Shown: positions 5,189 through 41,818 of the stretch, in pieces
How the letters are laid out: every line of letters begins with the position of its first letter
Numbering within the stretch: the stretch's first letter is position 1
Assembly (NCBI RefSeq): GCF_004365705.1
Contig: NZ_SOBN01000001.1
Span: forward strand, 5,194,001 to 5,258,000
DNA length: 64,000 bases
Source of the DNA: Streptomyces sp. 846.5
GTDB lineage: Bacteria > Actinomycetota > Actinomycetes > Streptomycetales > Streptomycetaceae
Direction of reading: 5' to 3'
Program-made: the position numbers and the translations under genes
Notes under the pieces: generated by a model
What the model saw: the letters and a program-made list of their open reading frames with translations, nothing else
Database searches by the model: none
Told to the model about the DNA's origin: nothing

Positions 5189-6237
5189 TGGTGCGGCACC
5201 TCGAACCCGAACGCGTCGCTTGCCGCCTCGCGGCGGAACACCGCCAGAGCGACCGGTGTGTTCTCGATGCGCCAGTCGGCGCGCTTGGGGATGTCGAACC
5301 AGATCAGTCCGATGATGTCCGAGTACTTCTTGACGCCCTCGAAAAGCAGCTGGACGTCGGTGGCGCGCCGCGACCCCGGTTCGGCCGAGGTCTCGCTGAT
5401 GATGATCGGCTTTTCGGTGAAAGCCCGGACCTCGTCGCGGGTCGGTCCGTACAGGGTGTCGAAGGTGTGGGCACCGGTCAGGGCCCAGTAGCCGACGACG
5501 CCCACCCAGTCCACGTACGCGTCACCCGGCCAAAAGGGCTTGAGCTGCACGCTGGGCACCGGGTTGACGATGTTGGGGCTCCACACCCAGATGACGTTGT
5601 TCGCGCCGACCGCCTTGAACACGTCGTGGATGTGCTGCCACGCCTTGACGAACGTCGCGGGTGTCGTCGCCTGGGTGCCCCACGGGTACCAGCCGCCGTT
5701 CATCTCGTGGCCGAAGCTGAGGGCGACCGGGACGTTCTCGTTCCGGACCTCGGCGGCGAACCGCTTGATGTAGGCGTCCTGCGAGCCGTCGGCGATCTTG
5801 TCGAGGCCGGGGGACTTGGGCTCCCACGACACGTAGGACAGTCCGCCGGCCGCGTAGACGTTGGCCGCGCCCTGGGCGTTGAAGTCATTGCCCCAGGAGG
5901 AGTACGACTCGACGATGTCGGGGGTCCTGCCGACCTTGGCTGCGTACGTGCTCACGGGCGCCATCGAGGTGGGAGCTCCGTTCAGGGCGACGCCCAGGTA
6001 CTTCTTGGCCGGGTGGAGCAGCGGCGTGATGTCGTAGGGGTGCAGCGCGGCGCTCGCTGATGCGCTCGCCTGTTCCTGTGCCTGCTTCTGGCTCTGTACC
6101 TGACCTGACGTCTTGGTGCCGGAGGGCAGGAGTTGCCAGGGCTTGAGGGCGAGAACCGCCATGGCGGCCAGCGCGATGAGCAACGCGACCGGGATCCAGA
6201 GGCGGCGCTTCGCGGCGGGTTTCGCACGGCGGGTCAT
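5185..6237 (-). CDS. GH26-type glycoside hydrolase, membrane-anchored
   Basis: 350 residues: a basic N-terminus, one membrane segment (about residues 13-32), a Gln/Ser/Ala-rich linker and a GH26-like (beta/alpha)8 domain. GHEMNGGWYPWG contains the expected acid/base Glu, and PIIISETSAEPG contains the expected nucleophile Glu. GH26 enzymes are mostly beta-mannanases or mixed-linkage glucanases. Its ATG (6237) overlaps the stop codon of the GT2 synthase (ATGA), the classic pairing of a polysaccharide synthase with a trimming hydrolase. The anchor would place the catalytic domain outside the cell, next to the nascent polymer. Substrate is not determinable here. Confidence 0.88.
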   Translation of the reverse strand: MTRRAKPAAKRRLWIPVALLIALAAMAVLALKPWQLLPSGTKTSGQVQSQKQAQEQASASASAALHPYDITPLLHPAKKYLGVALNGAPTSMAPVSTYAAKVGRTPDIVESYSSWGNDFNAQGAANVYAAGGLSYVSWEPKSPGLDKIADGSQDAYIKRFAAEVRNENVPVALSFGHEMNGGWYPWGTQATTPATFVKAWQHIHDVFKAVGANNVIWVWSPNIVNPVPSVQLKPFWPGDAYVDWVGVVGYWALTGAHTFDTLYGPTRDEVRAFTEKPIIISETSAEPGSRRATDVQLLFEGVKKYSDIIGLIWFDIPKRADWRIENTPVALAVFRREAASDAFGFEVPHQ

Positions 6238-7871
6238 ACGGCAGCCTCTCGGGGTTGTATGAGACTGCGGGCGACCACGAGCGCGTAGAACAGTCCGGAG
6301 GAGAGGACCAGTGCGTAGTCCGGCGGGTAGCCGGTGAAGAGGCGGTAGACCGCCACTCCGACCCAGACGACGGAGCAGCCGCCGCTGTAGAGGCTCAGGC
6401 CCAGCCAGAAGCGCCGGGTCTTGTTCTTCTTGGCGTCCTTCGAGCCGGTCGGCTGCCAGCCCATGCGCTGCTTGCGCAGGATGTCGTAGATGGCGAACAC
6501 GTGCGCCCAGCCGTACATCAGGCGGGCGGACCAGGCTTCGAGCCGGTACGGACTGCGGTGCCACATGGGGAAGATCAAGGTGGTGTAGACGACGCTCGGA
6601 AGCACCCACAACAGGTTCTTCACCTTCAGCATCTCCGGATCCAGGAGCACCAGCATGATCGGCAGGAGCGGGGAGAAGAGGGTGAACACCGCGGTGTGGA
6701 TGTAGTAGAAGAAGCCGGAGATGTAGCAGAGACGGCTGGAGAACTTGATCGGTGCGTCCCAGAATTTCTTGCTGCCCAGCAGGGACATGGAGCCGGAGCA
6801 CCAGCGGTACTGCTGGTTGAAGAAGGCTCCGGCGCTGTCCGGGCACACACCGGTGGACAGGGCGACCGGCACGTACTTGAGGTCCCAGCCGAGGCCTCGC
6901 AGGTCGAAGCCGGTGTGCACGTCCTCGGAGTGCTCGATCAGCGTCGTCCCGCCGTTGTCCTCCAGGGCGGCACGGCGGTAGATCGCGCAGCTGCCGACGC
7001 AGATCGCGCCGCCGCTGTTCTGCCGGGACACCTGGACCGACCGGTAGAACAGCTCCTGCACCGCGCCGGCGCCCCGCTCGATCCAGTTCTGCGAGTCGAG
7101 GACACGGAAGTACTGGGGGGACTGGATGATGCCGATACGCTCGTCGGCCTCCAGGTAGGGCAACAGCTCTTCGAGGAGGTCGGCGCGCGGAGTGAAGTCG
7201 GCGTCCAGGATGAGGATGTACGTGCCGTCGGAGTTGCCGAAGCCGTAGTGGAGATTGCCGGCTTTCTTGAACCAGCCGCGGTTCGGCCTCGTCCCGTATC
7301 GGAACCCGAAGTCGGCGGCCATGGCCTTGAGTTCGGGGCTCGCCCCGTCGTCGAGGACGTAGGGGACGCAGATTCCCGGGTAGCGGTCGGCGAGCTGTCG
7401 GACGTGCGTCCAGGTGTTGTGCAGGACCTCGATGGGCTCGCCGCAGACCGGGAGGAAGACGTCCACGCTCGGATAGACATCGCACCGCCAGTTGCGCACG
7501 AGGCGTTGGTGCTGCTCGAAATCGAAGCCGCGGGAGAAGCCGTTGACGCGCAGCGAGATCAGGTAGTAAACGAACGTGAACACCAGCGGCGGAGCGAAGA
7601 TCCACATCAGTGGGTTCGACTCCGCCAGGGAGGCCTGACTGATCGTCAGGCATCCGAAGCTGACGATCGACGCCAGAGTGAGGATCCAGAGCCGGCGCTG
7701 CAGGTAGGAGTACTTCTCGCGTTGATTCGGCGGAAGCGGGAGGAGTCCGAGCGGCGCCTGCGCACCTCGCACGCGCCGGCGGGCGCCCTGCGGCCTCCTG
7801 GCGCCGTCGACCTGCGTCTCGCGGGCGGTACGCAAGTGCGGGCACTCCCCTCGTGGTGGCGGGAGTCGCAC
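6234..7871 (-). CDS. Cellulose-synthase-like processive glycosyltransferase (GT2)
   Basis: About 545 residues. Two N-terminal membrane helices (about residues 62-108) precede a cytoplasmic GT2 domain, followed by several C-terminal helices. All processive GT2 motifs are present in order: DDGASPE (first Asp), DADF (DxD), SEDVHTGF (catalytic-base ED) and QQYRW (QxxRW polymer-channel motif). It probably polymerises a nucleotide sugar and extrudes a beta-linked chain. There is no PilZ domain. The start is uncertain: GTG at 7871 lacks a clear ribosome site, whereas TTG at 7835 has GAGGGGAG nine bases upstream. It is the first gene of a five-gene operon with GH26, GT-C-like and GtrA proteins. Confidence 0.9.
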   Translation of the reverse strand: MRLPPPRGECPHLRTARETQVDGARRPQGARRRVRGAQAPLGLLPLPPNQREKYSYLQRRLWILTLASIVSFGCLTISQASLAESNPLMWIFAPPLVFTFVYYLISLRVNGFSRGFDFEQHQRLVRNWRCDVYPSVDVFLPVCGEPIEVLHNTWTHVRQLADRYPGICVPYVLDDGASPELKAMAADFGFRYGTRPNRGWFKKAGNLHYGFGNSDGTYILILDADFTPRADLLEELLPYLEADERIGIIQSPQYFRVLDSQNWIERGAGAVQELFYRSVQVSRQNSGGAICVGSCAIYRRAALEDNGGTTLIEHSEDVHTGFDLRGLGWDLKYVPVALSTGVCPDSAGAFFNQQYRWCSGSMSLLGSKKFWDAPIKFSSRLCYISGFFYYIHTAVFTLFSPLLPIMLVLLDPEMLKVKNLLWVLPSVVYTTLIFPMWHRSPYRLEAWSARLMYGWAHVFAIYDILRKQRMGWQPTGSKDAKKNKTRRFWLGLSLYSGGCSVVWVGVAVYRLFTGYPPDYALVLSSGLFYALVVARSLIQPREAAV

Positions 7872-8562
7872 AGTGCAACGCCCACGGGTGCGGATCTCTT
7901 ACCTTGTTTGACGGTTTCGAGAGTATAGGCGAGTCATTGGTGCCACTGGTGTGACAGAAAAGGGGTACTAACGTGACAGAAGTGAACATGCCAATCAGAA
8001 TGCCCTGGTTACGTTCCGTCGCCGCGTATTCCCTCGCAAGCCGATGATCGTGCGGATGAAGCAGGCCTCGCCCCAGGGAAACGGCTGCACGGGCGTGATC
8101 CGTGCAACCCTGTGACCGTTTCGACTGTCACCCTCAGTGATGCGTTTCCAGAGGTCGGCCAGGTATTCATGGAACGTTGGCATGATTTCTGGTTGTTCGC
8201 CGCGAATCTGAATCACCGTGATCCGCGGCGGAATCGAGGCGGAATCGTGATGATGCGGGGAGGCGGTGTTTCGGGGGTGTTTCGTAGGAGCAGCAAGCAC
8301 CCCACGCTGCGTGCGGAGTGGCACGTTCGCGGGGCGAGGCTCCTCAGATCAGGTTGAGGATGGCGGCTTCCTTGGAGCCTGCTTGTCCGTCGCTGGATCC
8401 GCAGGAACTGGCGGGCGTGGGAACAGCAGCTCCTTGCGGTGACAACCTGGATCAGGCGCCGTTCCCGCGTCCGATCCGGCGGTGCAGGACTGGGATCTCC
8501 TCCTGCGGCAGGGGGCTCCCGGCATCCGTCCGGCCGTAGCCCGTTCGGTGCAGCGCGGTGGG
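7872..8562. other. Gene-poor 690 bp upstream of the polysaccharide operon
   Basis: I see no convincing gene here. GC content is lower than in the flanks (around 7,900-8,250). It contains the probable promoter of the minus-strand polysaccharide operon at its left end and a small hairpin (GCACGG/CCGTGC arms, 8,087-8,105). A minus-strand frame at 7,995-8,183 could encode 62 residues but has no ribosome site and no recognisable family. The rest may be decayed DNA next to the broken toxin gene. Confidence 0.5.
7922..7981 (-). promoter_or_regulatory. Probable promoter and activator-type repeats for the polysaccharide operon
   Basis: Read on the minus strand, a TATACT -10-like hexamer lies at 7,927-7,922. 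Upstream of it are two direct repeats of TTCTGTCAC (7,981-7,973 and 7,959-7,951), 22 bp apart, about two helical turns. No good -35 box is present at the right spacing. The pattern fits an activator bound to two half-sites next to the -35 position, upstream of the GT2 gene. Confidence 0.45.
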
Positions 8563-8899
8563 CTACGGGAACAGGGTGAAGGCGGGAACGTGGCTCGGGC
8601 GCACCACGCTGAAGTGGCGGCGGTCCAGGGTGGCGACGTTGACGGCGCGGAACTTCTCGGCGACTGCGACGACGAAGGCGTCGGCGGTGCCCAGGGGAAG
8701 GTCCGCGTACTGCTCTACGAGGTCGGCAGCCCGGCTTACCTCGGACGGGGTGACGGAGACCAGCTCGTAGACGCCGTCCGCAACATCGCGCAGAAAGTCG
8801 GCTTCGGCCTTGGCCCCGGCACGGCTGAAGAGTATGTAGCCGATCTCAGCGAGGAGGGGTGCGGGCCGCCACCACAGGGCCGGTGTCCATGACGATCAC
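8563..8899 (-). pseudogene. VapC-like PIN-domain toxin, broken by internal deletion/frameshift
   Basis: The frame starts at GTG 8899, overlapping the antitoxin stop (GTGA), and reads VIVMDTGPVVAA with the first PIN acidic residue. It then meets a stop after ~17 codons. In another frame, without its own start, the rest of a PIN domain follows: LLAEIGYILFSR, GTADAFVVAVAEK (conserved Asp) and NVATLDRRHF, ending at a stop at 8,563. About 25-30 residues that PIN toxins normally have between strand 1 and the LLAEI helix are missing, and the join is out of frame. PIN toxins are Mg-dependent RNases; this one should be inactive. Confidence 0.8.
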
Positions 8900-9120
8900 G
8901 CGCTCCGTGGCTCCTCACTGGCCCAGGCGTCGCGGACGATCTCCTTGGAGCGTGTGGCAAGGTCGGGTTCGCCGTCGAAGACGGCCGTCGTGCGGAACCG
9001 GCGGCGTGGGCGCTCGCCGCGCTCCGCCTCGGCCCACTGGCGCAGTAGCTCGACAGCATCGGGGAGCCGGTCCTCCGGCACCGCGTCGAGCAGGCGGTGT
9101 GCTTCCTCGCGTACGGTCAT
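8896..9120 (-). CDS. Antitoxin of a PIN-domain (VapBC-like) toxin-antitoxin pair
   Basis: A 74-residue charged protein: an N-terminal helix (EEAHRLLDAVPEDRLPDAVE) and an Arg-rich centre. This layout is common in actinobacterial antitoxins encoded directly upstream of PIN toxins. It looks intact: ATG at 9120, no internal stop, and its TGA overlaps the toxin GTG. The toxin partner is a pseudogene, so this may be an orphan antitoxin. Assignment to a named antitoxin family is uncertain; the neighbouring PIN remnant is the main evidence. Confidence 0.72.
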   Translation of the reverse strand: MTVREEAHRLLDAVPEDRLPDAVELLRQWAEAERGERPRRRFRTTAVFDGEPDLATRSKEIVRDAWASEEPRSA

Positions 9121-9275
9121 GTGCTCAGTCTAGGGTCCGGGACCGCGGTCGTGGGCCCCATGCCCTGTGAGGTATGACGGTGGGGGCTGTTGATATTCGC
9201 AATCAAATCCCCAATGAAATCAACAATTTTGCTTTGATGATTTCGGGACCTCGGCAGGGGCGCGCACTGCCCGGC

Positions 9276-9713
9276 TCAGCAGGGGCGCTTGCGTAGGTCC
9301 ATGACGTAGTCGTGGGGGGCGCCGGCGGATTCGGCGGCGTCGGCGATGATGCCGAGGTAGCGGGCCGAGGGGAGGCCGCCCTCGTAGTCGTTGAGGACGT
9401 AGGTCCAGGCGGTGAGGTCGCCCTCCAGGGTGTGCACCCGGACCTTGAGCTTGCGGTAGAAGCCCTGGGGCAGGCCCTCCCAGCGGTCCAGGCCGGCCTC
9501 GTCGCCCGGGGCGATGTCGTAGAGGCCGACGAAGACCTGGTCCTTCTCGTCCTCGACCACCGTGGCGATCGAGCCCTCCCAGCCGAACTGCTCGCCGCCG
9601 AAGGTCAGCCGCCAGCCGTCCAGCCAGCCGGTGCAGCGGAGCGGCGAATGCGGGGCCCGACGGCTCATCTGGCGTGCGTCGAGGTTGCTGGCGTACGCGG
9701 CGTAGAGCGACAT
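9276..9713 (-). CDS. Gamma-glutamylcyclotransferase-like (AIG2/GGCT fold) protein
   Basis: 145 residues with the substrate-loop motif YAAYASNLD at the N-terminus (the YGSNL motif of GGCT-fold proteins), GWEGSIATV, and an acidic residue in LDRWEGLP at the position of the catalytic Glu. Family members cyclise gamma-glutamyl amines or peptides to 5-oxoproline, but many bacterial members have unknown substrates. It is divergent from lpdA with under 100 bp between the starts. In Streptomyces chromosomes a homologue commonly sits next to lpdA (recalled, not checked here). Confidence 0.82.
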   Translation of the reverse strand: MSLYAAYASNLDARQMSRRAPHSPLRCTGWLDGWRLTFGGEQFGWEGSIATVVEDEKDQVFVGLYDIAPGDEAGLDRWEGLPQGFYRKLKVRVHTLEGDLTAWTYVLNDYEGGLPSARYLGIIADAAESAGAPHDYVMDLRKRPC

Positions 9714-9807
9714 GGGTCACAGCGTACGGGAGGTGGGGCAGGTGGGAGGGATGGGTACGGCCCGTACGGGCCAGCCCGGTGTCATGGAGTCGCCGAGGTG
9801 CGGGACA

Positions 9808-11265
9808 ATGGCGTATGTGACTCGGATTGTGATCATCGGTGGCGGACCTGGCGGATACGAGGCGGCGCTCGTCGCCGCGGACCTCGGCGCGGAGGTGACC
9901 GTCGTCGACCGCGACGGCCTCGGCGGCGCGGCGGTTTTGACGGACTGTGTACCGTCCAAGACCCTGATCGCCACGGCTGAGGTGATGACCAGCTTCGACA
10001 GCTCCTACGAGGAGCTGGGGATCAAGGTCGCCGACGACACGCCCACCTCGGGGGCCCGCGTGGTCGGCGTCGACCTGGGCAAGGTCAACCGGCGGGTCAA
10101 GCGGCTGGCGGTCGCGCAGTCGCACGACATCACCCAGTCCGTCACCCGCGCGGGTGTCACCCTGCTGCGCGGCTTCGGCCGGCTCGCGGCCGGCGGGCAG
10201 GCCGTGGACGGCTCGCGCGGGGTCGTGGTCGACCTCGCCGAGGGCGGGACGCAGGAGCTGCGGGCCGACGTGGTGCTGATAGCGACCGGCACCCGGCCGC
10301 GGGAGCTGCCGGACGCCGTCCCGGACGGCGAGCGGATCCTGAACTGGACCCAGGTCTACGACCTGGACGAGCTCCCCGAGGAGCTCGTCGTGGTCGGCTC
10401 GGGTGTGACCGGCGCCGAGTTCGCCGGCGCCTACCAGGCCCTGGGCTCGCGGGTGACCCTGGTCTCCAGCCGCGACCGGGTGCTGCCCGGTGAGGACCCG
10501 GACGCCGCCACGGTGCTGGAGGACGTGTTCCGGCGCCGCGGGATGAACGTGATGTCGCGGTCGCGGGCCGAGTCGGTGCAGCGCGTCGGCGACAAGGTGG
10601 AGGTGACCCTGTCCGACGGTCGGGTCATCACCGGGTCCCACTGTCTGATGGCCGTCGGCTCCATCCCCAACACGGGTGCGATGGGTCTGGAGGAGGCCGG
10701 GGTCCGGCTGACCGAGGGCGGGCAGGTCAAGGTGGACCGGGTGTCGCGGACCTCCGCCCCCGGGGTGTACGCGGCGGGCGACGTCACCGGGGTGTTCATG
10801 CTGGCCTCGGTCGCGGCCATGCAGGGCCGGATCGCGATGTACCACGCGCTGGGCGACGCGGTGACGCCGCTGAACCTGAAGACCGTCGCCTCCAATGTCT
10901 TCACCGACCCGGAGATCGCCACGGTCGGCTACAGCGCCGCCGACGTCGAGTGCGGGAAGATGGACGCGGTCTGCGTGAAGCTGCCGTTGCGCGGCAACCC
11001 GAGGGCCAAGATGCAGGGCATCAGGGACGGCTTCGTGAAGCTGTTCTGCCGCCCCGGCACGGGCATCGTGGTGGGCGGCGTGGTCGTGGCGCCCCGGGCG
11101 AGCGAGCTGATCCATCCGATCTCGCTGGCGGTGGACAACAATCTGACGGTGGAGCAGGTGGCGAGCGCCTTCACGGTGTACCCGTCGGTCTCCGGGTCGA
11201 TCGCGGAGGCGGCGCGGCAGCTGCACATCCGCAAGCGGGCCTCGGGGAGTTCGCCGGGGGCGTGA
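9808..11265 (+). CDS. lpdA: NAD(P)H:quinone reductase, LpdA-type flavoprotein disulfide reductase homologue
   Basis: 485 residues with an N-terminal FAD Rossmann motif (IIGGGPGGYEAA), a central NAD(P) motif (VVGSGVTGAEFA), the FAD segment GVYAAGDVTG and a C-terminal dimerisation domain. It looks like lipoamide dehydrogenase but lacks its active site: the redox region reads GGAAVLTDCVPSK, with only one cysteine. The C-terminal HxxxxE catalytic pair is replaced by VYPSVSGSIAEAA. This is the pattern of Mycobacterium tuberculosis LpdA (Rv3303c), which reduces quinones and is not a lipoamide dehydrogenase. The start could be ATG 9808 or GTG 9817. A DeoR regulator follows 115 bp downstream. Confidence 0.88.
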   Translation: MAYVTRIVIIGGGPGGYEAALVAADLGAEVTVVDRDGLGGAAVLTDCVPSKTLIATAEVMTSFDSSYEELGIKVADDTPTSGARVVGVDLGKVNRRVKRLAVAQSHDITQSVTRAGVTLLRGFGRLAAGGQAVDGSRGVVVDLAEGGTQELRADVVLIATGTRPRELPDAVPDGERILNWTQVYDLDELPEELVVVGSGVTGAEFAGAYQALGSRVTLVSSRDRVLPGEDPDAATVLEDVFRRRGMNVMSRSRAESVQRVGDKVEVTLSDGRVITGSHCLMAVGSIPNTGAMGLEEAGVRLTEGGQVKVDRVSRTSAPGVYAAGDVTGVFMLASVAAMQGRIAMYHALGDAVTPLNLKTVASNVFTDPEIATVGYSAADVECGKMDAVCVKLPLRGNPRAKMQGIRDGFVKLFCRPGTGIVVGGVVVAPRASELIHPISLAVDNNLTVEQVASAFTVYPSVSGSIAEAARQLHIRKRASGSSPGA

Positions 11266-11380
11266 AGTTGGTACGGACCGGCGCGCATTGTAGTTGTGTG
11301 CGCCGTTCCGTGGTGGACAACTTCGACTACTAGGTGCAAACGCCTGAAAGCAGATGGTCATGCACGTTACCGTCTGTTTC

Positions 11381-12274
11381 GTGTTCGCAGCAGAACGTCG
11401 CCAATTGATCCTCGAAATGGTGCGCGCCAATGGAGCGGTTTCGCTCCGGGAGCTCGCCCGAGTCGTCCAGACCTCCGAAGTGACCGTCCGTCGGGACGTG
11501 CGCGCTCTGGAGGCCGAAGGCCTTCTCGACCGTCGCCACGGGGGCGCAGTGCTCCCCGGCGGTCTCTCCAGAGAGCCCGGATATCCGCAGAAGACCCATC
11601 TAGCCGCCGCCGAGAAGTCGGCCATCGCCGACTACGCCGCCACGATGGTCGCCGAGGGCGACGCGATCGTGGTGGGCGCCGGGACCACGACGCAGGAGCT
11701 GGCCCGACGGCTGGCCCGGGTGCCGGGGCTGACCGTGGTCACCAACTCGTTGCTGGTGGCCCAGGCGCTGGCCCATGCCAACAGGGTGGAGGTGGTGATG
11801 ACCGGGGGCACCTTGCGGGGGTCGAACTATGCCCTTGTGGGCAGCGGGGCCGAGCAGTCCCTGCAGGGGCTGCGGGTCTCGCGGGCCTTTGTCTCGGGCA
11901 GCGGGCTGACCGCGGAGCGGGGGCTCTCCACGACCAACATGCTGTCGGCGAGCGTGGACCGGGCCCTGGTCGCCGCCGCGGCGGAGGTGGTCGTGCTGGC
12001 GGACCACGGGAAGCTCGGGTCGGACACCATGTTCCAGACCGTGGCGACCGAGAACATCGCCTGCCTGGTGACGGACGAGCAGTCCGGCCTCTCCGAGGAG
12101 GCCTCGCGCGAGTTGGACGCCCTGGCCGACCACGGCGTCCAGGTCTGCATCGCCCAGGCCCCCGTCGCCGCAGCGCCCGCGGTCGCCGGCGTCCCAGGAG
12201 TCCCCTTCCCGGGCCAACGCCGCTCCCCAGGCGCAGGCGTCCCCGTAGCAGGCCGAGGCATCATCCGCCGCTGA
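11381..12274 (+). CDS. DeoR/GlpR family transcriptional regulator
   Basis: About 297 residues from GTG 11381 (the frame is open to 11354). The N-terminal DeoR helix-turn-helix is clear: RRQLILEMVRANGAVSLRELA, then VVQTSEVTVRRDVRALE and LLDRRHGGAV. The C-terminal sugar-phosphate sensor domain has VGAGTTTQELA, TNSLLVAQAL and VMTGGTLRGSNYALVG. Such regulators respond to phosphorylated sugars or nucleoside-derived effectors. The last ~35 residues are Pro/Ala-rich and variable. It follows lpdA and converges with the acyl-CoA carboxylase alpha gene, with a shared hairpin terminator between them. The target regulon is unknown; the nearby nucleoside phosphorylase is one possibility. Confidence 0.87.
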   Translation: MFAAERRQLILEMVRANGAVSLRELARVVQTSEVTVRRDVRALEAEGLLDRRHGGAVLPGGLSREPGYPQKTHLAAAEKSAIADYAATMVAEGDAIVVGAGTTTQELARRLARVPGLTVVTNSLLVAQALAHANRVEVVMTGGTLRGSNYALVGSGAEQSLQGLRVSRAFVSGSGLTAERGLSTTNMLSASVDRALVAAAAEVVVLADHGKLGSDTMFQTVATENIACLVTDEQSGLSEEASRELDALADHGVQVCIAQAPVAAAPAVAGVPGVPFPGQRRSPGAGVPVAGRGIIRR

Positions 12275-34402: not shown

Positions 34403-34417
34403 CTGACGCACCGTCAG
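34403..34417. promoter_or_regulatory. Inverted repeat CTGACG-CAC-CGTCAG
   Basis: Perfect 6 bp arms, 32 bp before the GTG start of the first surface-protein gene. The same pattern occurs before the WxL operon and, with one mismatch, before the LtrA gene. Candidate shared operator. Confidence 0.55.
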
Positions 34418-34448
34418 TACGGGAGTTGCGGAGGCGAAGGGCGGGGTC

Positions 34449-35165
34449 GTGGTCGGGAGAAGTGGCGGGAGGCTGGCGGCGGGGGTGTCCGTGCTCGCTG
34501 TCGCGGGAGTGGGGGTTCTGGCCGGGTCCGTCGGCGGGGCGCATGCGGCGGGGGCGGCGCTGGTGGCGGTGCCGTACCACTGCACGACGCCGATCGGGGA
34601 GAAGGACGCGGTGTCCAAGGTCGCGGTGACGGCCGTGCCCAGCGGCAGCGGCGGCGCCTATGCCGTGACCATGGACTTCACCAACGGCGTCTCCTCCAGC
34701 CCGGTCGACCTCGGCCCGGGGGCGATGCAGCCGAGCGCGGTGCTGGACCTCGGGGGCGCCGACGCTGGGACGGTGAAGGTGTCGGGGCCCGCCAACGCCA
34801 CCAGGGTCCCGGCCAACACGCCGATCGCCATCGGGAGCATGACCGGCAGCTACCGCCCGAGTAGCAAGGCCACGACCGGGACGGTGACCTTCACCCCTGG
34901 GGTGCTCACCGTGATCTCCTACACGCTCACGACGACCTGCACGCCGACCGGCGCCACGCCCGTCGGTCTCAGCCTGCCGATCACCGTCGCCGCCGCAGGC
35001 TCATCCGCCGCTACCTCCGCTCCCGCGGTCTCGAACCTCGCGCAGACCGGCGCCGACAGCTACCCCGTCGCCGTCGGCCTGTTCGGCGGGACGGTTCTGC
35101 TGGGCGGTCTGGGTGGGGTGCTGATTCTGACCCGGCGGCCCCGGTCGGCCGGGCGGATGCCTTGA
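34449..35165 (+). CDS. Secreted LAQTG sortase-type surface protein
   Basis: 238 residues from GTG. A signal peptide (about 1-34, ending AHAAGA) is followed by a ~130-residue domain with two cysteines (YHCTTPIG ... TTTCTPTG). A Thr/Ser/Ala linker leads to NLAQTG, a hydrophobic segment and a basic RRPRSAGR tail, i.e. an LPXTG-like anchor of the LAxTG type used by Streptomyces sortase E. The central domain is the same as in the proteins starting at 35,423 and 39,027. It is 257 bp upstream of the WxL operon with its own inverted-repeat site. Function unknown; cell-wall surface location is inferred. No sortase gene is in the window. Confidence 0.8.
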   Translation: MVGRSGGRLAAGVSVLAVAGVGVLAGSVGGAHAAGAALVAVPYHCTTPIGEKDAVSKVAVTAVPSGSGGAYAVTMDFTNGVSSSPVDLGPGAMQPSAVLDLGGADAGTVKVSGPANATRVPANTPIAIGSMTGSYRPSSKATTGTVTFTPGVLTVISYTLTTTCTPTGATPVGLSLPITVAAAGSSAATSAPAVSNLAQTGADSYPVAVGLFGGTVLLGGLGGVLILTRRPRSAGRMP

Positions 35166-35175
35166 CTTCTAAATC

Positions 35176-35188
35176 TGACGGGTCGTCA
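35176..35188. promoter_or_regulatory. Inverted repeat TGACG-GGT-CGTCA
   Basis: Second copy of the TGACG-N3-CGTCA motif, in the leader of the WxL operon and preceded, as at 34.4 kb, by AATCTGACG-like sequence. Candidate operator shared with the gene at 34,449. Confidence 0.55.
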
Positions 35189-35196
35189 ATGATGGG

Positions 35197-35283
35197 CACC
35201 GCCAAGGCGGTGAGCACAGAAACGACACACATGCAGGAGGCCGGCCGCCCCCGTCGACGGCAAGGGAGACAGGGGGCGGTCGG
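35197..35283 (+). other. Structured 5' leader of the WxL operon (two hairpins)
   Basis: CACCGCC-AA-GGCGGTG (35,197-35,212) and a larger stem with arms CCGGCCGCCCCC and GGGGGCGGTCGG (35,241-35,283, 11 of 12 pairs) lie in the 257 bp before the operon. They could be a terminator for the upstream gene or a structured untranslated leader. I do not recognise a known riboswitch. Confidence 0.4.
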
Positions 35284-35422
35284 CCCGCACGGCACCGTGG
35301 CGCCGATCGAAGAATAGTCCTGGTGCACCTCACCCGGGCAGATCGGCTCCGGTGGCCGTGACGGCTGTCACGCAGCGGGCGTGGCGATAGCCGCCGCCTT
35401 CACCGAAAGGGGCACCACGATC

Positions 35423-36766
35423 GTGTTCCACAGTTCGCACAGACATACGCCGCGGCGCAGACGCCGCGGGCTCCAGGCAGGATTCATCGCGCTGGCCCTG
35501 GCGGCGCCGCTGGCGTTCGCCGGCCAGGCGCAGGCGGACACCGCCGGCACGCCGGTGTCGTACGCGACCACCTGCACACCCCCGGCGAGCCTCGGTCTGT
35601 CGCCGATCCACGGCACCACCACCTCGGAGATCACCGTCTCCAACGCCACTCCCAAGGTCGGCGACACCGTCACCGTCACCTATGACGTGACGACGCCCGC
35701 CGCGGGCAACCCGACGGCGACAGCGCTCCCCGCCAACGTGGTCCTGCCCACCGGCACGGTCACCCTCGGCGGCGCGCAGAGCGGGACGGTCGCCGTCACC
35801 GGAACCCGTAGCAACCCTCCGGTGGCCGGCAACGCGGCCTTCCCCGGCTTCACCATGACCGGGACCTTCGTGGTCTCCGCGGCCGGGGCGATCACGCTGA
35901 CACCGAGCAACTACAACATCAACTCCAACTACATCATCACCATCGACATCCCCTGCACCATCGACACCCCGCCGGCCGGCGTCTCCAACACCATCACCGC
36001 CAGCCCGGCGACCTCGGCCAACAACCGGGTCGTGACCGACAACCCCAGCTCCGGCGCGCCCGGCGCGAAGACCACGGTCAGCGGCACCGGCTTCACCGCA
36101 GGCGCCTCCGTCACCGTGGCGGGCTTCGCCGGGACCACGGCGACGGGTGACGCCACCACCGCCATGGCGGACAGCACCGGCGCGTTCAGCGTCCAGCTGA
36201 CCGTCAACGCGGCGGCGACCACGGGCATCATCGCCTTCGAGGGGACGGCCTACAGCGCTGCCACGGCGGCGCCGCCGGTCGCGTACACGGTCATTCCGGT
36301 CACCCCGCCCGGCGGTGCGTCGCAGACGCTGAACAGCTCGGTCAAGAGCGGAACGCTGAGCATGACCCAGGCCGGTGACACCGTCACGATGACCCCGGTC
36401 GACTTCGGCACCGGAGGCAGCTCCACCGGATCGCTCAACGCCGTCACGGTCAAGGACTACCGCGGCGGTGCCAGCGGCTGGTCGCTGACCGCCAGCAACA
36501 CCAACTTCGTCGGCCCCTCCGGAAGCACCCTGCCGGCGGCCAACCTCAGCTGGACGCCTGCCTGCAGCACCACCTCCGGCAGCCCCAGCACCTGCGCCGC
36601 CGGTTCGGCGGGCACCGTCGGCACGGCCGGGGCGACCCTGGCGAGCACCCCCGCGGCGACACTGACCGGTGGTCAGTTCAGCGCCACGGCGGACCTCTCG
36701 CTGAACGTCCCGGCGTTCACCGCGCCCGGCACCTACAGCTCGACGCTCACGCTGACCCTGGCCTGA
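35423..36766 (+). CDS. WxL-like secreted surface protein
   Basis: About 447 residues. A long basic signal region (RRRRR, then a hydrophobic core ending AQADTAG) is followed by the locus-specific two-cysteine domain (SYATTCTPP ... IDIPCT, about 37-170). Next come an Ig/TIG-like part (~175-290) and a C-terminal WxL-type domain with GWSLTA (Trp at ~353) and a terminal YSSTLTLTLA, where Firmicutes WxL proteins have YxGTLTWTL. The second Trp is therefore replaced by Leu. WxL domains bind peptidoglycan without covalent linkage. The GTG start at 35423 (AAAGGGG upstream) is chosen; GTG 35381 is the alternative. The DUF916 partner gene follows 36 bp later. Confidence 0.8.
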   Translation: MFHSSHRHTPRRRRRGLQAGFIALALAAPLAFAGQAQADTAGTPVSYATTCTPPASLGLSPIHGTTTSEITVSNATPKVGDTVTVTYDVTTPAAGNPTATALPANVVLPTGTVTLGGAQSGTVAVTGTRSNPPVAGNAAFPGFTMTGTFVVSAAGAITLTPSNYNINSNYIITIDIPCTIDTPPAGVSNTITASPATSANNRVVTDNPSSGAPGAKTTVSGTGFTAGASVTVAGFAGTTATGDATTAMADSTGAFSVQLTVNAAATTGIIAFEGTAYSAATAAPPVAYTVIPVTPPGGASQTLNSSVKSGTLSMTQAGDTVTMTPVDFGTGGSSTGSLNAVTVKDYRGGASGWSLTASNTNFVGPSGSTLPAANLSWTPACSTTSGSPSTCAAGSAGTVGTAGATLASTPAATLTGGQFSATADLSLNVPAFTAPGTYSSTLTLTLA

Positions 36767-36802
36767 GCCCCACCCCGACCCCGCACCATTGGAGGACCGC
36801 CG

Positions 36803-37897
36803 ATGTACCACCGTCGACCGCTGACACCCCGTCTGCTCAGGGTGCTGCTGGCCGCGCTGCTGGCCGTCGGCGGCCTCCTCCTCGGTGCGGGGCCGGCCCC
36901 GGCCGCGGCCCCCGCCGCAGCCCCCGCCGCAGCCCCCGCGATCGCCCCCGCCGCCGACAACGGGAGCTGGGCGGTCTACCCGGTCCCGGCCTCCAAGGCC
37001 AGGAACGCGCTTCCGGACCGGGAGTACTTCTATCTGGAGGCGGCGCCCGGGGCGACCGTCAGCGACACCGTCTCCGTCTTCAACACCTCCAGCCGGCCGA
37101 TCACCTTCCAGCTCTACGGCGCCGACGCCTACAACACCCCGCGCGACGGCGGGTTCGCGCTGCGCGCGGCCGACCAGCCGCAGCTCGGCGTGGGCGCCTG
37201 GACGCAGCTCAAGGCCAACAAACTGACCGTCCCCGCGCACCACCGTGCCGACATCCCGTTCACCATCGCGGTGCCCAAGGGCGCCGAGCCCGGGGACCAT
37301 CCCGGCGCGATCGTCGCCCTCGACACCGCCACCGTGGGGACCAGCAGCAACGGCAAGGTCGCCGTCGGCATCCAGCGCGCCGTCGGCGCCCGGGTCTATC
37401 TGCGGGTGTCCGGCCCGGCCGTGCCGGCGGTGACGCTGCAGAACGTCTCGGTGAGCCGCAGGGCTCCGCTGATCCCCGGGCTCGGATCGTCCTCGGCCAC
37501 CGTCCGCTACACCCTGGTGAACCGGGGCAACACCACCGTGCACCCCACGCTGGCGCTCAGGGCCAGCGGCTGGTTCGGCGGCACCGTCCTCAACGCGGCC
37601 CCCAAGGACCTCGGCATCGACCTGCTGCCGGGCCAGTCCGTCACCCTCAGCGTCCCCTGGCCGCATCCGCCGCAGTTCGACCACGTCAGCCTGAAGCTGT
37701 CGATCGCCGGTACGGACATCTCGGCGACCGCAGGGACGAGCTTCTTCGCCGTCCCCTGGTTCCTCGTCGGACTGGTCCTGGTGCTGATCGGCCTGCTGAT
37801 CGGCGCCCGCCGGCTTCGCTCGCGGCGACGCCGGGCGCAGCGCGGCGGCGGCTGGTCCTGGCGGCGCGGGCGGGTACGGGTGGAGGCCGCCGCATGA
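36803..37897 (+). CDS. DUF916-type (WxL-interacting) membrane-anchored protein
   Basis: 364 residues. Signal peptide ~1-35, an Ala/Pro repeat linker (to ~50), then a DUF916-like beta domain (WAVYPVPASK ... YFYLEAAPGATVSDTVSVFNTSSRPITFQLYGAD; AHHRADIPFTIAVPKGAEPGDHPGAIVAL). A second beta domain (~180-300) precedes a C-terminal membrane helix (~312-332) and a very basic tail. In Firmicutes, proteins of this type bind peptidoglycan and WxL proteins. ATG 36803 has TTGGAGGAC upstream. The stop overlaps the next start (ATGA). Encoded right after the WxL-like gene, which supports the pairing. Confidence 0.85.
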   Translation: MYHRRPLTPRLLRVLLAALLAVGGLLLGAGPAPAAAPAAAPAAAPAIAPAADNGSWAVYPVPASKARNALPDREYFYLEAAPGATVSDTVSVFNTSSRPITFQLYGADAYNTPRDGGFALRAADQPQLGVGAWTQLKANKLTVPAHHRADIPFTIAVPKGAEPGDHPGAIVALDTATVGTSSNGKVAVGIQRAVGARVYLRVSGPAVPAVTLQNVSVSRRAPLIPGLGSSSATVRYTLVNRGNTTVHPTLALRASGWFGGTVLNAAPKDLGIDLLPGQSVTLSVPWPHPPQFDHVSLKLSIAGTDISATAGTSFFAVPWFLVGLVLVLIGLLIGARRLRSRRRRAQRGGGWSWRRGRVRVEAAA

Positions 37898-39030
37898 CGG
37901 TGATGTCGCTGCCGCGCCGGGTGGCCCTGCTCGCCGGGGTGCTGCTACTGGCGCTGGCGCTGCCGGTCGCGCTGCCGGCGGCCCCGGCGCGCGCCGCCGG
38001 GCCGAGCGCCGCGGTGACGGCGTCCCCGGGCACCGCGGCACCCGGCTCGACCACCACCGTCACCGGGACCGGCTGGCCCGCGCGCACCCTGCTCACCGTG
38101 CTGCTCTGCGGCCAGAACGAGGTCGACGGCACGGACGACTGCGCCAACGGCAGCGGACGCGCCCTCACCACCACGGCCGGCGGCAGCTTCACCGTGGAGC
38201 TGCCGGTGGTCAAGCCTCCGCAGCCCTGCCCGTGCGTCATCCACGCCACCACGGTGACCGGCGCGAACGTCACGGTGAACACCGCCTTCCCGGTGATCGG
38301 CGTCGCCGATGTCCCGGTCAAGCAGTCTCCGGGCACGCTGCTCCCGCTCACCGCGACCGTCAGCGGCGGCGGCTCCCTGATGACCTGGTTCGGAGCGCCG
38401 CCGCACCGCACGTTCAAGGCGGTGATCGCCAATGTGGGCAACTCGGCGATCACCGATCCGGTGTTCCGGACGGGCATCTGGCGCTCCGTCTTCGCCCCGG
38501 ACTGGCAGGAGTTCCAGTGGAGCGGGGTGATCGCGCCGGGGGCCAGGCAGGAGATCGACATACCGCTGGACTTCGCCGCCGGGGCGCATGGCGGCTACGC
38601 CGTCCAACTCCAGTACAACGGGACCGAGTTGACGACACAGCAGGTGACCCTGCCGCATCCCTGGGGAGTCACCCTGTTCTGGCTGCTGCTGTGCGTGGTG
38701 GTCCCGGTGGGTCTGTTCAGGATCGGGCTCGCCGCGGTCGACCGGCTACGGCCCGTCCTGGCCCTGAGCCAGCCCCATCGGCCCGGCCCTCCGCCGCCCT
38801 ACGCCGCCCCGGGCCAGGAGTACGACACCCTCGTGTTGCCGCCGATGCCCGTGCACCCGCCCCGCACGGCGCCGCTCCCGCCCACCCTGCCCTGGTTCGC
38901 CCCCGGCTACGGCCCCGCGCTGCCCAGGACGGGCGACGACGACCCCCCTTCCCGTACCGCCCAGGCCCGCACCCCTGGATCTTCCACCCTCGGATCTTCC
39001 ACCCTCCTCGACAAAGGAATCGACGCGTGA
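37894..39030 (+). CDS. Secreted/anchored protein with Ig-like domain, WxL operon
   Basis: 378 residues. Signal peptide (~1-36), then an Ig/TIG-like domain (AAVTASPGTAAPGSTTTVTGTGWP) with four Cys in pairs (LLCGQNEVDGTDDCA, PCPCV). A second beta-rich domain follows (~150-260), then a membrane helix (~262-285) and a ~90-residue Pro-rich C-terminal cytoplasmic tail. No sortase motif. It overlaps the DUF916 gene (ATGA) and the next gene (GTGA), so production is coupled to both. No known family beyond the Ig-like fold; probably part of one surface complex. Confidence 0.78.
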   Translation: MTVMSLPRRVALLAGVLLLALALPVALPAAPARAAGPSAAVTASPGTAAPGSTTTVTGTGWPARTLLTVLLCGQNEVDGTDDCANGSGRALTTTAGGSFTVELPVVKPPQPCPCVIHATTVTGANVTVNTAFPVIGVADVPVKQSPGTLLPLTATVSGGGSLMTWFGAPPHRTFKAVIANVGNSAITDPVFRTGIWRSVFAPDWQEFQWSGVIAPGARQEIDIPLDFAAGAHGGYAVQLQYNGTELTTQQVTLPHPWGVTLFWLLLCVVVPVGLFRIGLAAVDRLRPVLALSQPHRPGPPPPYAAPGQEYDTLVLPPMPVHPPRTAPLPPTLPWFAPGYGPALPRTGDDDPPSRTAQARTPGSSTLGSSTLLDKGIDA

Positions 39031-39812
39031 ACAGAAACAGGCTCGCCTGGGGCGCACTGCTGGCCACGGCCGGTGCATCGCTGCTCATGGGAGTTCAGCC
39101 GGCCGCTGCCGCGGACCTCAGCTTCGCGACCACCTGCATACCGCCCGCGGGGGTGGGCCTCGGCACGGTCCACGGCACCTCGATCGCCAATGTGACCAGC
39201 TCCAGCTCCTCGCCGAAGGTCGGCGACACCATCACCGTCACCTGGACGACGGTGAAGGCCGCATCGAACAACCCCGGCATCATCGACCTGCAGGCCAACA
39301 CGGTGAAGCCCAGCGGCAAGATCAAGCTGGGCGGCGTCCAGTCCGGCACGGTCGCGGTGAGCGGGCCGATGGTCAACCCGAAGATTCCCAAGAACTCGCC
39401 GATGGTCATCTCCCCGATGACCGGCACGATCAAGCTGACCGCGGCCGGCACGGTGACCTTCAGCCCGGAGGGGTACACCATCACGGTCCTGGGCACCGAC
39501 ACCGTCTGCACCGCGGACTCGCCCGCCGTCGGCCTCACCCTCACCGTTGGGCAGGGCTCCAGCAGCACCAGCGGCGGGACGACGGCGTCCAGCTCGCCCA
39601 GCAGCTCCTCCTCCAGCTCGTCCTCCTCCAGCAGTTCCTCCGGCTCCACCACTGGTTCCACCACCAGCTCCTCCTCCAGCGGCAACCTGGCCAGCACCGG
39701 TGGCGACAGCTCCAGCTTCCGCGCACTCGGCCTGCTCGGCGGCAGCGTGCTGCTGGTCGGCGCGGCGGTGTTCGTGCTCACCCCCTGGCGCCGGCTCCGC
39801 CGACCGCGCTGA
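39027..39812 (+). CDS. Secreted LASTG sortase-type surface protein
   Basis: 261 residues from GTG 39027 with AAAGGA upstream. Signal peptide ~1-30, then the two-cysteine domain shared with the proteins at 34,449 and 35,423 (LSFATTCIPPAGVGLG ... GGVQSGTVAVSGP ... DTVCTADSP). A long Ser/Thr/Gly stalk (~175-222) leads to NLASTG, a hydrophobic segment and a basic RRLRRPR tail. This is the typical layout of a sortase-anchored protein with a spacer to cross the wall. Last gene of the coupled WxL operon. The Ser tract is nearly pure and may vary in length. Confidence 0.82.
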   Translation: MNRNRLAWGALLATAGASLLMGVQPAAAADLSFATTCIPPAGVGLGTVHGTSIANVTSSSSSPKVGDTITVTWTTVKAASNNPGIIDLQANTVKPSGKIKLGGVQSGTVAVSGPMVNPKIPKNSPMVISPMTGTIKLTAAGTVTFSPEGYTITVLGTDTVCTADSPAVGLTLTVGQGSSSTSGGTTASSSPSSSSSSSSSSSSSSGSTTGSTTSSSSSGNLASTGGDSSSFRALGLLGGSVLLVGAAVFVLTPWRRLRRPR

Positions 39813-39865
39813 GCGGCTGCGGGCGGAAGGGCCGTTCGCGCAGCGCCGGGCACTACGATCAGGGC

Positions 39866-40540
39866 ATGACCCGTGTACTGCTCGCCGAGGACGACGTCGC
39901 CATCTCGGAACCGCTCGCCCGCGCGCTGCGCCGCGAGGGTTACGAGGTCGTGGTCCGCGAGGACGGCCCCTCGGCCCTGGAGGCCGGTCTCGAGGGCGGC
40001 AACATCGACCTGCTGGTGCTCGACCTCGGACTGCCCGGGATGGACGGCCTGGAGGTGTGCCGACGGCTGCGCGCCGACGGTCACGGCTTCCCGGTGCTGG
40101 TGCTCACCGCCCGCGCCGACGAGGTCGACACGGTGGTCGGCCTGGACGCGGGCGCCGACGACTACGTCACCAAGCCGTTCCGGCTCGCCGAGCTGCTGGC
40201 CCGGGTCCGGGCGCTGCTGCGTCGCGGCACGGTGGACCTCACCACCGGCGCCCACGGTGTGAAGATCGACGTGGAGTCGCACCGCGCCTGGATCGGCGAG
40301 GAGGAACTCCAGCTCTCCGCAAAGGAGTTCGAACTGCTCCGGGTGCTGGTGCGGGACGCCGGCCGGGTGGTCACCCGCGAGCAGATCATGCGCCAGGTCT
40401 GGGACACCACCTGGTGGACCTCCACCAAGACCCTCGACATGCACATCTCCTGGCTCCGCAAGAAGCTCGGCGACGACGCCGCCAGCCCCCGCTACATCAC
40501 CACCGTGCGCGGCGTCGGCTTCCGGTTCGAGAAGGGCTGA
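39866..40540 (+). CDS. OmpR-family response regulator
   Basis: 224 residues. Receiver domain (~1-115): acidic pair in LLAEDDVAI, phospho-acceptor Asp in LLVLDLGLPGMDGLEV, Thr in VLVLTARADE and Lys in TKPFRLAEL. A C-terminal winged helix follows (~125-222; LSAKEFELLRVLVRDAGRVVTREQIM ... RGVGFRFEKG). It controls transcription after phosphorylation by the kinase encoded 9 bp downstream. It follows the surface operon by 53 bp on the same strand, so it may sense or regulate envelope state; the link is by position only. Confidence 0.93.
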   Translation: MTRVLLAEDDVAISEPLARALRREGYEVVVREDGPSALEAGLEGGNIDLLVLDLGLPGMDGLEVCRRLRADGHGFPVLVLTARADEVDTVVGLDAGADDYVTKPFRLAELLARVRALLRRGTVDLTTGAHGVKIDVESHRAWIGEEELQLSAKEFELLRVLVRDAGRVVTREQIMRQVWDTTWWTSTKTLDMHISWLRKKLGDDAASPRYITTVRGVGFRFEKG

Positions 40541-40549
40541 CCCTCACAC

Positions 40550-41818
40550 GTGCAGCGCCGGCTGATCAACTCCACCCTCGCCGTCGTCCTGGTGGTGGTC
40601 GCGCTGTTCTGCGCCCCGCTCGCCCTGGTCGAGAAGCGCAGCATCGAGAACAACGCCCAGGAGCAGGTCTCCTCGGAGGCGCTGCACCTGATCGGGGTCG
40701 TGGAGAACCGCCTGGTCGCGGGCGAGCCCATCGACGCCGAGGCACTGTCCGGGCTGACCGGCCAGAACGCCCAGCGCTATGCCGTGGTCGAGCTGCCGGG
40801 ACAGCCGGCCATAACGCTCGGCGCCAAGCCGTCGGGCGGCAACCCGGTGAGCGCGACCGAGACCGGGCCGCACGGCGAGAAGGTCACCGTCCAGGAGTCG
40901 CGCGGGCCGCTGAACCGCAACATCCGCAACATGCTGCTGCTCCTGGTCCTGGTCGCGGTGCTCACCCTGGTGGCGGCGGCGCTGCTCGCGGTATGGCAGG
41001 CCAAGCGGCTGGCCCGTCCGCTCACCGACCTCGCCGAGACCGCCGAACGCCTGGGCTCCGGCGACCCGCGCCCCCGGCAGCGCCGCTACGGCGTGGTCGA
41101 GCTGGACCGGGTCGCCGAGGTGCTGGACGCCAGCGCCGAGCGCATCGCCCGGATGCTCACCGCCGAGCGCCGTCTCGCCGCCGACGCCTCGCACCAGCTG
41201 CGCACCCCGCTCACCGCACTGTCGATGCGGCTGGAGGAGATCGCCGAGACCGACAACCTGACCACGGTCAGGGAGGAGGCCGCGATCGCCCTGGGCCAGG
41301 TGGAACGGCTCACCGACGTGGTGCAGCGGCTGCTCACCAACAGCCGGGACCAGCGCAAGAGCTCGGCGAAGCCGTTCGAGCTGGACGAGGTGATCAAGCA
41401 GCAGGCCGAGGAGTGGAGCCCCGCGCTGCGCCGCGCCGGACGCACCCTCTACCTGGAGGGCCCGCCCGGACTGCTGGCACTGGGCAACTCGGGTGCGGTC
41501 GCCCAGGTGCTGGCGGCACTGATCGAGAACTCACTGATGCACGGCGACGGTGCGGTCACCATCCGCACCCGGGTCCGAGGCTCCTCGGTGGTGCTGGAGG
41601 TCCAGGACGAGGGCGCCGGCGTCCCGAGCGAGCTGGGCGCGCGGGTCTTCGAGCGCGCCGTCAGCGGCCACAACTCCACCGGCATCGGCCTGGCCGTCGC
41701 CCGCGACCTGGCGGAAGCAGACGGAGGCCGACTGGAACTGTTGTCCCAGCGGCCTCCGGTGTTCGCACTCTTCCTGGGACGCCCTGAGGGCCCCGACAGT
41801 GCGAAGGTAAGAACGTAA
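40550..41818 (+). CDS. Membrane sensor histidine kinase
   Basis: 422 residues from GTG. Two membrane helices (about 8-27 and 125-147) enclose a ~95-residue extracytoplasmic sensor. HAMP region (QAKRLARPLTDLAETAERLGSGD), then HisKA H-box ASHQLRTPLTAL with the phospho-His, N-box LIENSLMHGDG and Gly-rich ATP-lid DEGAGVPSE ... NSTGIGLAVARDLAEADGG. Partner of the response regulator just upstream. Closely convergent (4 bp) with the GtrA gene; no terminator hairpin is seen between them. Confidence 0.92.
   Translation: MQRRLINSTLAVVLVVVALFCAPLALVEKRSIENNAQEQVSSEALHLIGVVENRLVAGEPIDAEALSGLTGQNAQRYAVVELPGQPAITLGAKPSGGNPVSATETGPHGEKVTVQESRGPLNRNIRNMLLLLVLVAVLTLVAAALLAVWQAKRLARPLTDLAETAERLGSGDPRPRQRRYGVVELDRVAEVLDASAERIARMLTAERRLAADASHQLRTPLTALSMRLEEIAETDNLTTVREEAAIALGQVERLTDVVQRLLTNSRDQRKSSAKPFELDEVIKQQAEEWSPALRRAGRTLYLEGPPGLLALGNSGAVAQVLAALIENSLMHGDGAVTIRTRVRGSSVVLEVQDEGAGVPSELGARVFERAVSGHNSTGIGLAVARDLAEADGGRLELLSQRPPVFALFLGRPEGPDSAKVRT

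Follow-up and report, generated by a model that had tools for sequence, protein, structure and literature searches.

A WxL and DUF916 gene cassette in Streptomyces sp. 846.5 and its relatives in the Streptomycetaceae

Firmicutes accounted for over 91% of the WxL sequences in a published count (938 in all), and the distribution was called very limited (PMC9772566). What, then, is encoded by a WxL gene that stands directly before a DUF916 gene in an actinomycete, and does the two-component system beside it belong to the same system? These questions are raised by a stretch of 64,000 nucleotides, here called the window (C1:5194001-5258000), of the 9.03 Mb genome of Streptomyces sp. 846.5. Positions 34,403 to 41,818 of the window hold a cassette of genes for a WxL protein, a DUF916 protein of the WxL-interacting protein (WxLIP) type, an Ig-like membrane protein and two sortase substrates, followed by genes for a response regulator and a histidine kinase. 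We read the cassette, with a probability of roughly 0.6, as encoding an actinomycete version of a WxL/WxLIP wall-display complex, with its expression set through a palindrome and with the adjoining pair, DraR/DraK, as a mere neighbour.

The two central assignments, first made in a reading of the letters alone (hereafter the sequence-only reading), survive profile searches. The WxL protein matches PF13731 at 29.4 bits (cut-off 25) and the DUF916 protein matches PF06030 at 34.1 bits (cut-off 27.3), all Pfam matches being judged against the curated cut-offs; NCBIfam has no match for either protein. The WxL gene lies directly before the DUF916 gene with a gap of 36 nt. Among 224 named relatives, the 80 best loci, chosen by their WxL gene, all show this order on one strand (80 of 80), so the pairing is not due to chance. 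The nearest of these loci belong to two species of Streptacidiphilus, S. carbonis (88%) and S. jeojiense (92%), by which the host is taken to be a member of that genus. WxL also adjoins DUF916 in several loci of other actinomycete families. From the family matches and the adjacency, the two proteins may be expected to form the surface complex proposed for them.

The DUF916 protein was found in 131 of 249 family genomes (E <= 1e-5). Matches to PF13731 occur in 40 of the 249 (29 above the cut-off) and in 15 of 396 genomes across the phylum (9 above the cut-off). This model is insensitive in these genomes and misses true members, as the second WxL protein of the present genome has no PF13731 match. 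Literature searches on WxL, DUF916 and WxLIP with Streptomyces or actinobacteria found no actinomycete WxL system in titles and the starts of abstracts; a paper from 2025 places DUF916 among the frequent gene neighbours of Ang-2 domains (PMC12537917). We regard the WxL-DUF916 pair as a widespread Streptomycetaceae module for which no description was found in that literature.

The WxL protein and its DUF916 partner

The features of the cassette are as follows.

34403..34417, unstranded: box 1, operator-like palindrome CTGACGCACCGTCAG, upstream of the LAQTG gene
34449..35165, + strand: LAQTG sortase-substrate protein, 238 aa, from open reading frame and motif
35175..35189, unstranded: box 2, palindrome CTGACGGGTCGTCAA, upstream of the WxL gene
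35231..35384, + strand: conserved structured leader
35423..36766, + strand: WxL protein, 447 aa, with its probable start at GTG 35423 in a frame open from 35381
about 36401-36760: C-terminal WxL domain, one WxL motif
36803..37897, + strand: DUF916/WxLIP protein, 364 aa, with signal peptide, two beta-rich domains and a C-terminal transmembrane helix
37894..39030, + strand: Ig-like membrane protein, 378 aa, with an Ig domain, a hydrophobic stretch at 251-285 and a Pro-rich tail
39027..39812, + strand: LASTG sortase-substrate protein, 261 aa, with its probable, corrected start at GTG 39027

The WxL protein consists of a signal peptide, an N-terminal two-Cys domain, a weakly neocarzinostatin-like domain and the C-terminal WxL domain. 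Neocarzinostatin chains match the protein weakly, at E 0.01-0.045, through this Ig-type domain. The WxL domain is defined by two Trp-x-Leu motifs, the distal one being YXXX(L/I/V)TWXLXXXP, according to PMC5817068. In the window protein the first motif is retained (GWSL), and the distal one has Leu in place of Trp (YSSTLTLTLA). The missing second Trp had already been remarked on in the sequence-only reading and proves to be general, since the distal Trp is absent from 32 of 32 distinct WxL sequences (48 minus duplicates, window protein included). It is also absent from 14 of 14 readable WxL ends among 17 loci from outside the Streptomycetaceae, some of them neighbours in one genome; the ends at L073, L074 and L076 are not among the 14. 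In an alignment of 14 WxL sequences (A1), W353 (GW[ST]L) and W377 (L.W.P) are both retained.

The DUF916 protein has a predicted layout that agrees with the one given for WxLIP in PMC10599100, which consists of two domains (DUF916 and DUF3324) and a transmembrane helix. An AlphaFold2 model (mean pLDDT 75.8, pTM 0.59) contains two beta-rich domains, the second at 193-315, and a C-terminal transmembrane helix, which is predicted at 319-347 in the model, with a hydrophobic segment predicted at 308-340. When a profile of 19 DUF916 sequences (A2) was searched against the PDB at E <= 0.1, only EfmWxLIP1 of Enterococcus faecium was matched (9i25, 9i1y; best E 1.7e-4), over positions 41-163 of the first domain. 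Where the WxLIP motif is given as NQIDKxxxYFDLK (PMC10599100), the window protein has DREYFYLE.

The Csc/WxL clusters of Lactobacillales and Bacillales hold a small WxL protein, a large WxL protein, a DUF916-DUF3324 WxLIP and often an LPxTG protein. With these the cassette has in common the WxL domain, a DUF916 protein with a C-terminal transmembrane helix, the adjacency of their genes (the gap of 36 nt) and a sortase substrate. LPxTG partners, frequent but not universal, are described as already usual in Firmicutes WxL clusters (CscD, PMC1534035; PMC9772566), and the LAQTG and LASTG proteins correspond to them here. The cassette differs in encoding a single WxL protein where those clusters have at least two, in the lost distal TWxL Trp and in a WxLIP without the DUF3324 sequence signature, as well as in its LAxTG signals, a domain common to the WxL protein and a sortase-anchored protein, and a common palindrome. 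Since it has neither the dual Trp motif nor two WxL proteins, the cassette is set apart from the Csc cluster as described.

The lost Trp bears on how the protein is held at the surface. It is conceivable, if rather unlikely, that the single-Trp domain does not bind peptidoglycan but serves for protein-protein docking on the WxLIP at the membrane, with wall attachment left to sortase alone. This would fit the replacement of the distal Trp in all distinct sequences, and in 11 of 11 aligned sequences from a second type of locus described below, together with the retention of the WxLIP partner in all 80 named loci. However, because the Trp is likewise absent from the 14 loci outside the family, it may have been lost long ago throughout the lineage with function retained, and a second Trp, W377, is invariant in alignment A1.

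Sortase substrates, palindrome and leader

The sequence-only reading placed the LAQTG gene upstream and the Ig-like and LASTG genes downstream of the DUF916 gene, and recognised the LAQTG and LASTG proteins as sortase substrates; both points stand. Each of the two motifs precedes a hydrophobic stretch and a basic tail. The LASTG protein is homologous to the WxL protein in its N-terminal domain (39% identity over residues 30-210, E 1.9e-28), and the LAQTG protein is more distant, with E about 1e-10 to the LASTG proteins of L034 and L035. By sequence, the WxL and LASTG proteins therefore share a related N-terminal domain, of which the LAQTG protein carries a more distant relative. None of the LAQTG, LASTG and Ig-like proteins matches any Pfam model above the cut-off, and the LAQTG protein has no NCBIfam match either. 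The Ig-like protein reaches 35.4 bits with the NCBIfam model chromo_anti, below the cut-off of 86, as a weakly chromoprotein-like Ig domain.

A sortase E was expected elsewhere in the genome, and among its 12 sortase matches there is indeed a tandem class E pair at C1 4.04 Mb (NF033747, 242 and 247 bits, cut-off 160), one member of which matches SrtE1 (5cuw) at 1.1e-65. The five sortases that were classified also include a third class E enzyme (211 bits) and one of class F. The pair resembles SrtE1/SrtE2 in its tandem arrangement but is encoded in trans, outside the cassette. Class E sortases are reported to recognise LAXTG (PMC5148588), and they may sort both LAxTG proteins.

The gene order in the window is hutU, an allantoate-amidohydrolase-like gene, hutF, hutI, LAQTG, WxL, DUF916, Ig-like, LASTG, the OmpR-type regulator, the kinase, gtrA (reverse), purK and purE, where the hut, amidohydrolase and pur names were assigned by inspection. 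The coupling claimed for the cassette genes holds for DUF916, Ig-like and LASTG, which overlap at 37894-37897 and 39027-39030, and for the closely spaced WxL-DUF916 pair. From the sequence, these four genes form one closely packed unit, with LAQTG as a separate unit upstream. As the 257 nt between LAQTG and WxL contain a palindrome and the conserved leader, the cassette is probably transcribed as two units.

The palindrome CTGAYGNNNCRTCAG stands ahead of both cassette units and of most WxL genes elsewhere. In the window, TGACGNNNCGTCA occurs twice, at 34404 before LAQTG and at 35176 before WxL, where 0.19 would be expected, and two or more sites were obtained in 1 of 100 shuffles. Within 400 nt upstream of WxL, a site with up to two mismatches from CTGACGNNNCGTCAG was found in 76 of 78 scorable named loci (2 of the 80 were not scored): 3 with no mismatch, 44 with one and 29 with two. 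The frequency was 6.5% in 1560 random windows from the same loci, some of which contain the real site. Twenty draRK loci were picked by hand from different genera; this sample contains nine zero-mismatch CTGAYGNNNCRTCAG sites, each upstream of LAQTG in the nine cassette loci and present even in cassettes without WxL. In S. jeojiense (L084) the LAQTG homologue was not found, and two palindrome sites are kept 87 bp apart. The core contains 1.72 bits of information compared with 0.29 and 0.55 in the flanks of 79 WxL sites, and 1.89 bits compared with 0.70 and 0.45 at 16 LAQTG sites; these sites were picked by the palindrome (at <= 1 and 0 mismatches, respectively), so that the core information is partly built in, and the flank values and the random-window control are the safer evidence for conservation. 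The symmetry of the site suggests a dimeric regulator.

The palindrome as an operator of the cassette only was rejected. Across the genome, CTGACGNNNCGTCA was counted 77+80 times (control 3/2), perfect palindromes being counted on both strands, and ATCTGAYGNNNCRTCAR 11+10 times (control 0/0). Because the palindrome occurs elsewhere in the genome, its regulator would not be specific to the cassette. Among the inspected sites (10 proteins by Pfam), several precede genes for amidohydrolase, isochorismatase, thiolase-type and short-chain dehydrogenase proteins, and further sites fall within reading frames or precede unrelated genes, such as those for a mycothiol transferase, a glycosyltransferase and an HD domain protein. 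Examples of genomic sites are C1:3456099, 3466016, 3488372 and 4920444. None of four spellings of the motif was found in the papers searched.

The leader of the WxL unit lies in a region (35165-35425) with a fold z of -4.29. Of its 55 consensus pairs, 4 show two-sided changes among 9 sequences, with a small covariation term of -1.79. It was found by nhmmer in Streptacidiphilus only, among the loci compared, and 35231-35384 has no Rfam match at the gathering score.

The DraR/DraK neighbour

The regulator and kinase genes downstream of the cassette are positioned as in the sequence-only reading and have the expected domains, with matches to PF00072/PF00486 and PF00512/PF02518, respectively.

39854..39859, + strand: -10-like box TACGAT, six bases ahead of the ATG of draR
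39866..40540, + strand: DraR response regulator, a neighbour not assigned to the cassette, from Pfam and synteny
40550..41818, + strand: DraK histidine kinase, a neighbour, PF18092 at 80 bits, matching the 2mj6 sensor domain

The claim that they are the cassette's own two-component system was rejected, given DraK in all family genomes, relatives with an empty site and a separate promoter box before draR. The pair corresponds to S. coelicolor DraR/DraK (SCO3063/SCO3062), with the same PF18092 sensor domain and an adjoining OmpR-type partner. DraK is matched in 249 of 249 family genomes (E <= 1e-60) versus 131 for the DUF916 protein; in G205 its matches are weaker only (best 1.7e-78, at two places) and may not be to an orthologue. 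Of the 20 sampled draRK loci, 9 carry a whole or partial cassette and 11 carry none; DUF916 is present in 7 of the 9, and WxL in none beyond stray fragments. In three genomes of the same genus (L210-L212), hutI is followed immediately by draR, the cassette being absent, and at L039 the cassette is found on the purE side instead. In all 9 cassette loci of the sample, but not in the window, a POT-type transporter gene (PTR2, identified by Pfam for two relatives and otherwise by similarity) stands on the opposite strand between the cassette and draR. The distribution of the cassette is thus independent of draRK.

Among 51 distinct sequences from upstream of draR, which are related to each other, 49 have a box of the form TA[CA][CG]AT at 5-8 bases from the ATG, and all 51 have TANNNT there. 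Since the corresponding frequencies in 20000 random windows are 0.015% and 0.18%, draR probably has a promoter of its own that gives a nearly leaderless transcript. The cassette palindrome was not found before draR, at up to one mismatch, in the window or the 20 sampled loci.

Another explanation, which we consider improbable, is that the cassette is an effector of DraR/DraK through which the envelope responds to acid or to nitrogen status, and that it stays beside draRK because it is transcribed under DraR control. DraK/R is reported to regulate antibiotics, the nitrogen response, medium pH and itself (PMC4159317, PMC9739842, PMC3881020, PMC10345050), DraK of S. coelicolor to be required for the pH to recover from an acid shock (PMC4159317), and Streptacidiphilus, taken here as the host genus, to be acidophilic (PMC7601586). 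In addition, whole or partial cassettes adjoin draRK in several genera, and hutI and draR flank the cassette in 9 of the 80 named loci and in most of the others fetched. However, 70 of the 80 have no Ig, hutI or draR homologues in their flanks (up to 10 kb, some shorter); in the one remaining locus (L106) the contig ends first. The frequencies of DraK and DUF916 and the separate promoter box of draR also speak against such control. One form of a DraR-binding motif, sought in the literature, did not turn up in the papers searched. OmpR-type regulators usually bind direct repeats, and the cassette site is a palindrome rather than a direct repeat. Furthermore, of the three Glu positions described as relevant to pH in S. 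coelicolor DraK (83, 105 and 107; PMC4159317), which are not shown there to define the family, two are replaced in the window protein, which has Gln, His and Glu. The first two positions vary among the aligned DraK sequences, and for this reason no acid-sensing adaptation or acidophile signature is claimed.

Near one stand-alone WxL-DUF916 pair (L044) there are an MFS gene, an MLTR_LBD regulator and an ammonium transporter. A TGTGAACTANTTCACA-like palindrome stands upstream of draR in several related genomes (L180, L183, L184, L189 and L190).

The proposed complex and a second operon

In the wall-display complex that we favour, the WxL protein would be secreted, and its single-Trp WxL domain would attach it non-covalently to peptidoglycan, with the first beta-domain of the membrane-anchored WxLIP holding it in place. 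The two LAxTG proteins would be linked covalently to the wall by the class E sortase pair encoded at 4.04 Mb. With related N-terminal domains on the WxL and LAxTG proteins, one kind of display domain would reach the wall both covalently and non-covalently. A dimeric regulator that binds the palindrome ahead of both units would probably control expression, with DraR/DraK as a conserved chromosomal neighbour under its own promoter. Wall binding, complex formation, sorting by SrtE and the identity and sign of the regulator are the steps that we infer here.

Several observations weigh against this reading. Because the distal Trp is gone, peptidoglycan binding is not transferable from the Firmicutes. 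The E-value to EfmWxLIP1 is modest and restricted to the first domain, and the second WxLIP domain has no DUF3324 match in Pfam up to E 1. The published cluster definition, as given in PMC10599100, has at least two WxL proteins per WxLIP, and there is one at the window locus. Finally, the palindrome also occurs at catabolic genes and inside reading frames, hence is not specific to the cassette, and no regulator was identified for it. A surface adhesin set for plant or fungal polymers, like the host binding proposed for Firmicutes WxLIP, would agree with display domains on differently anchored proteins and with the host binding proposed for DUF3324 (PMC10599100), but is doubtful given that no lectin or ligand-binding domain exceeds the Pfam cut-off and that the second WxLIP domain is without the DUF3324 signature.

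WxL complexes have been described chiefly from gut commensals, and the widespread actinomycete branch has a changed WxL domain, a conserved palindrome and sortase partners. Whether wall binding depends on the second Trp, what role the WxL/WxLIP pair has where there is no animal host, and which regulator controls it become testable in laboratory Streptomyces. More tentatively, and with the odds somewhat against it, the Streptomycetaceae may possess an undescribed WxL surface regulon, in which a single-Trp WxL protein and a WxLIP occur in at least three forms: the draRK-linked display cassette, the stand-alone WxL-WxLIP pair and a WxL-WxLIP-sortase operon. The first two would share one palindromic operator, and the products would form a scaffold in the wall for proteins displayed on hyphae, not for host adhesion.

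The third form is represented in this genome by a second operon at C3 about 541-546 kb (L051, C3:535000-553000, positions 6033-11581). Here, the WxL domain, without a PF13731 match, ends a frame of 898 codons and is followed by a 600-aa DUF916 protein and then by a sortase (PF04203, 46.1 bits; 51 of 160 bits with the class E model). The operon stands among phosphate-transporter-like genes: it is preceded by a frame with PBP_like_2 and BPD_transp_1 domains, and on its downstream side there is a PstB-like gene, at 343.1 bits for a cut-off of 343.2. Among 16 loci of this second type (L051 and 15 hand-picked from the DUF916 family matches), WxL precedes DUF916 in all 16, and a sortase follows DUF916 in 10; it was not found in the other 6, where 1.5-2.5 kb downstream were covered. 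L051 has two palindrome sites with one mismatch, at and just behind the WxL stop (8726 and 8741). A palindrome is not claimed for this operon, since a site in the gap (one mismatch) was found in only 1 of the 15 relatives (L265) and in none of the other 14.

Elsewhere, a large draRK-linked cluster (L223-L224, G031:C49:72001-108000) encodes several WxL-domain proteins, with a small and a large WxL protein beside DUF916, a composition near that of the Firmicutes clusters.

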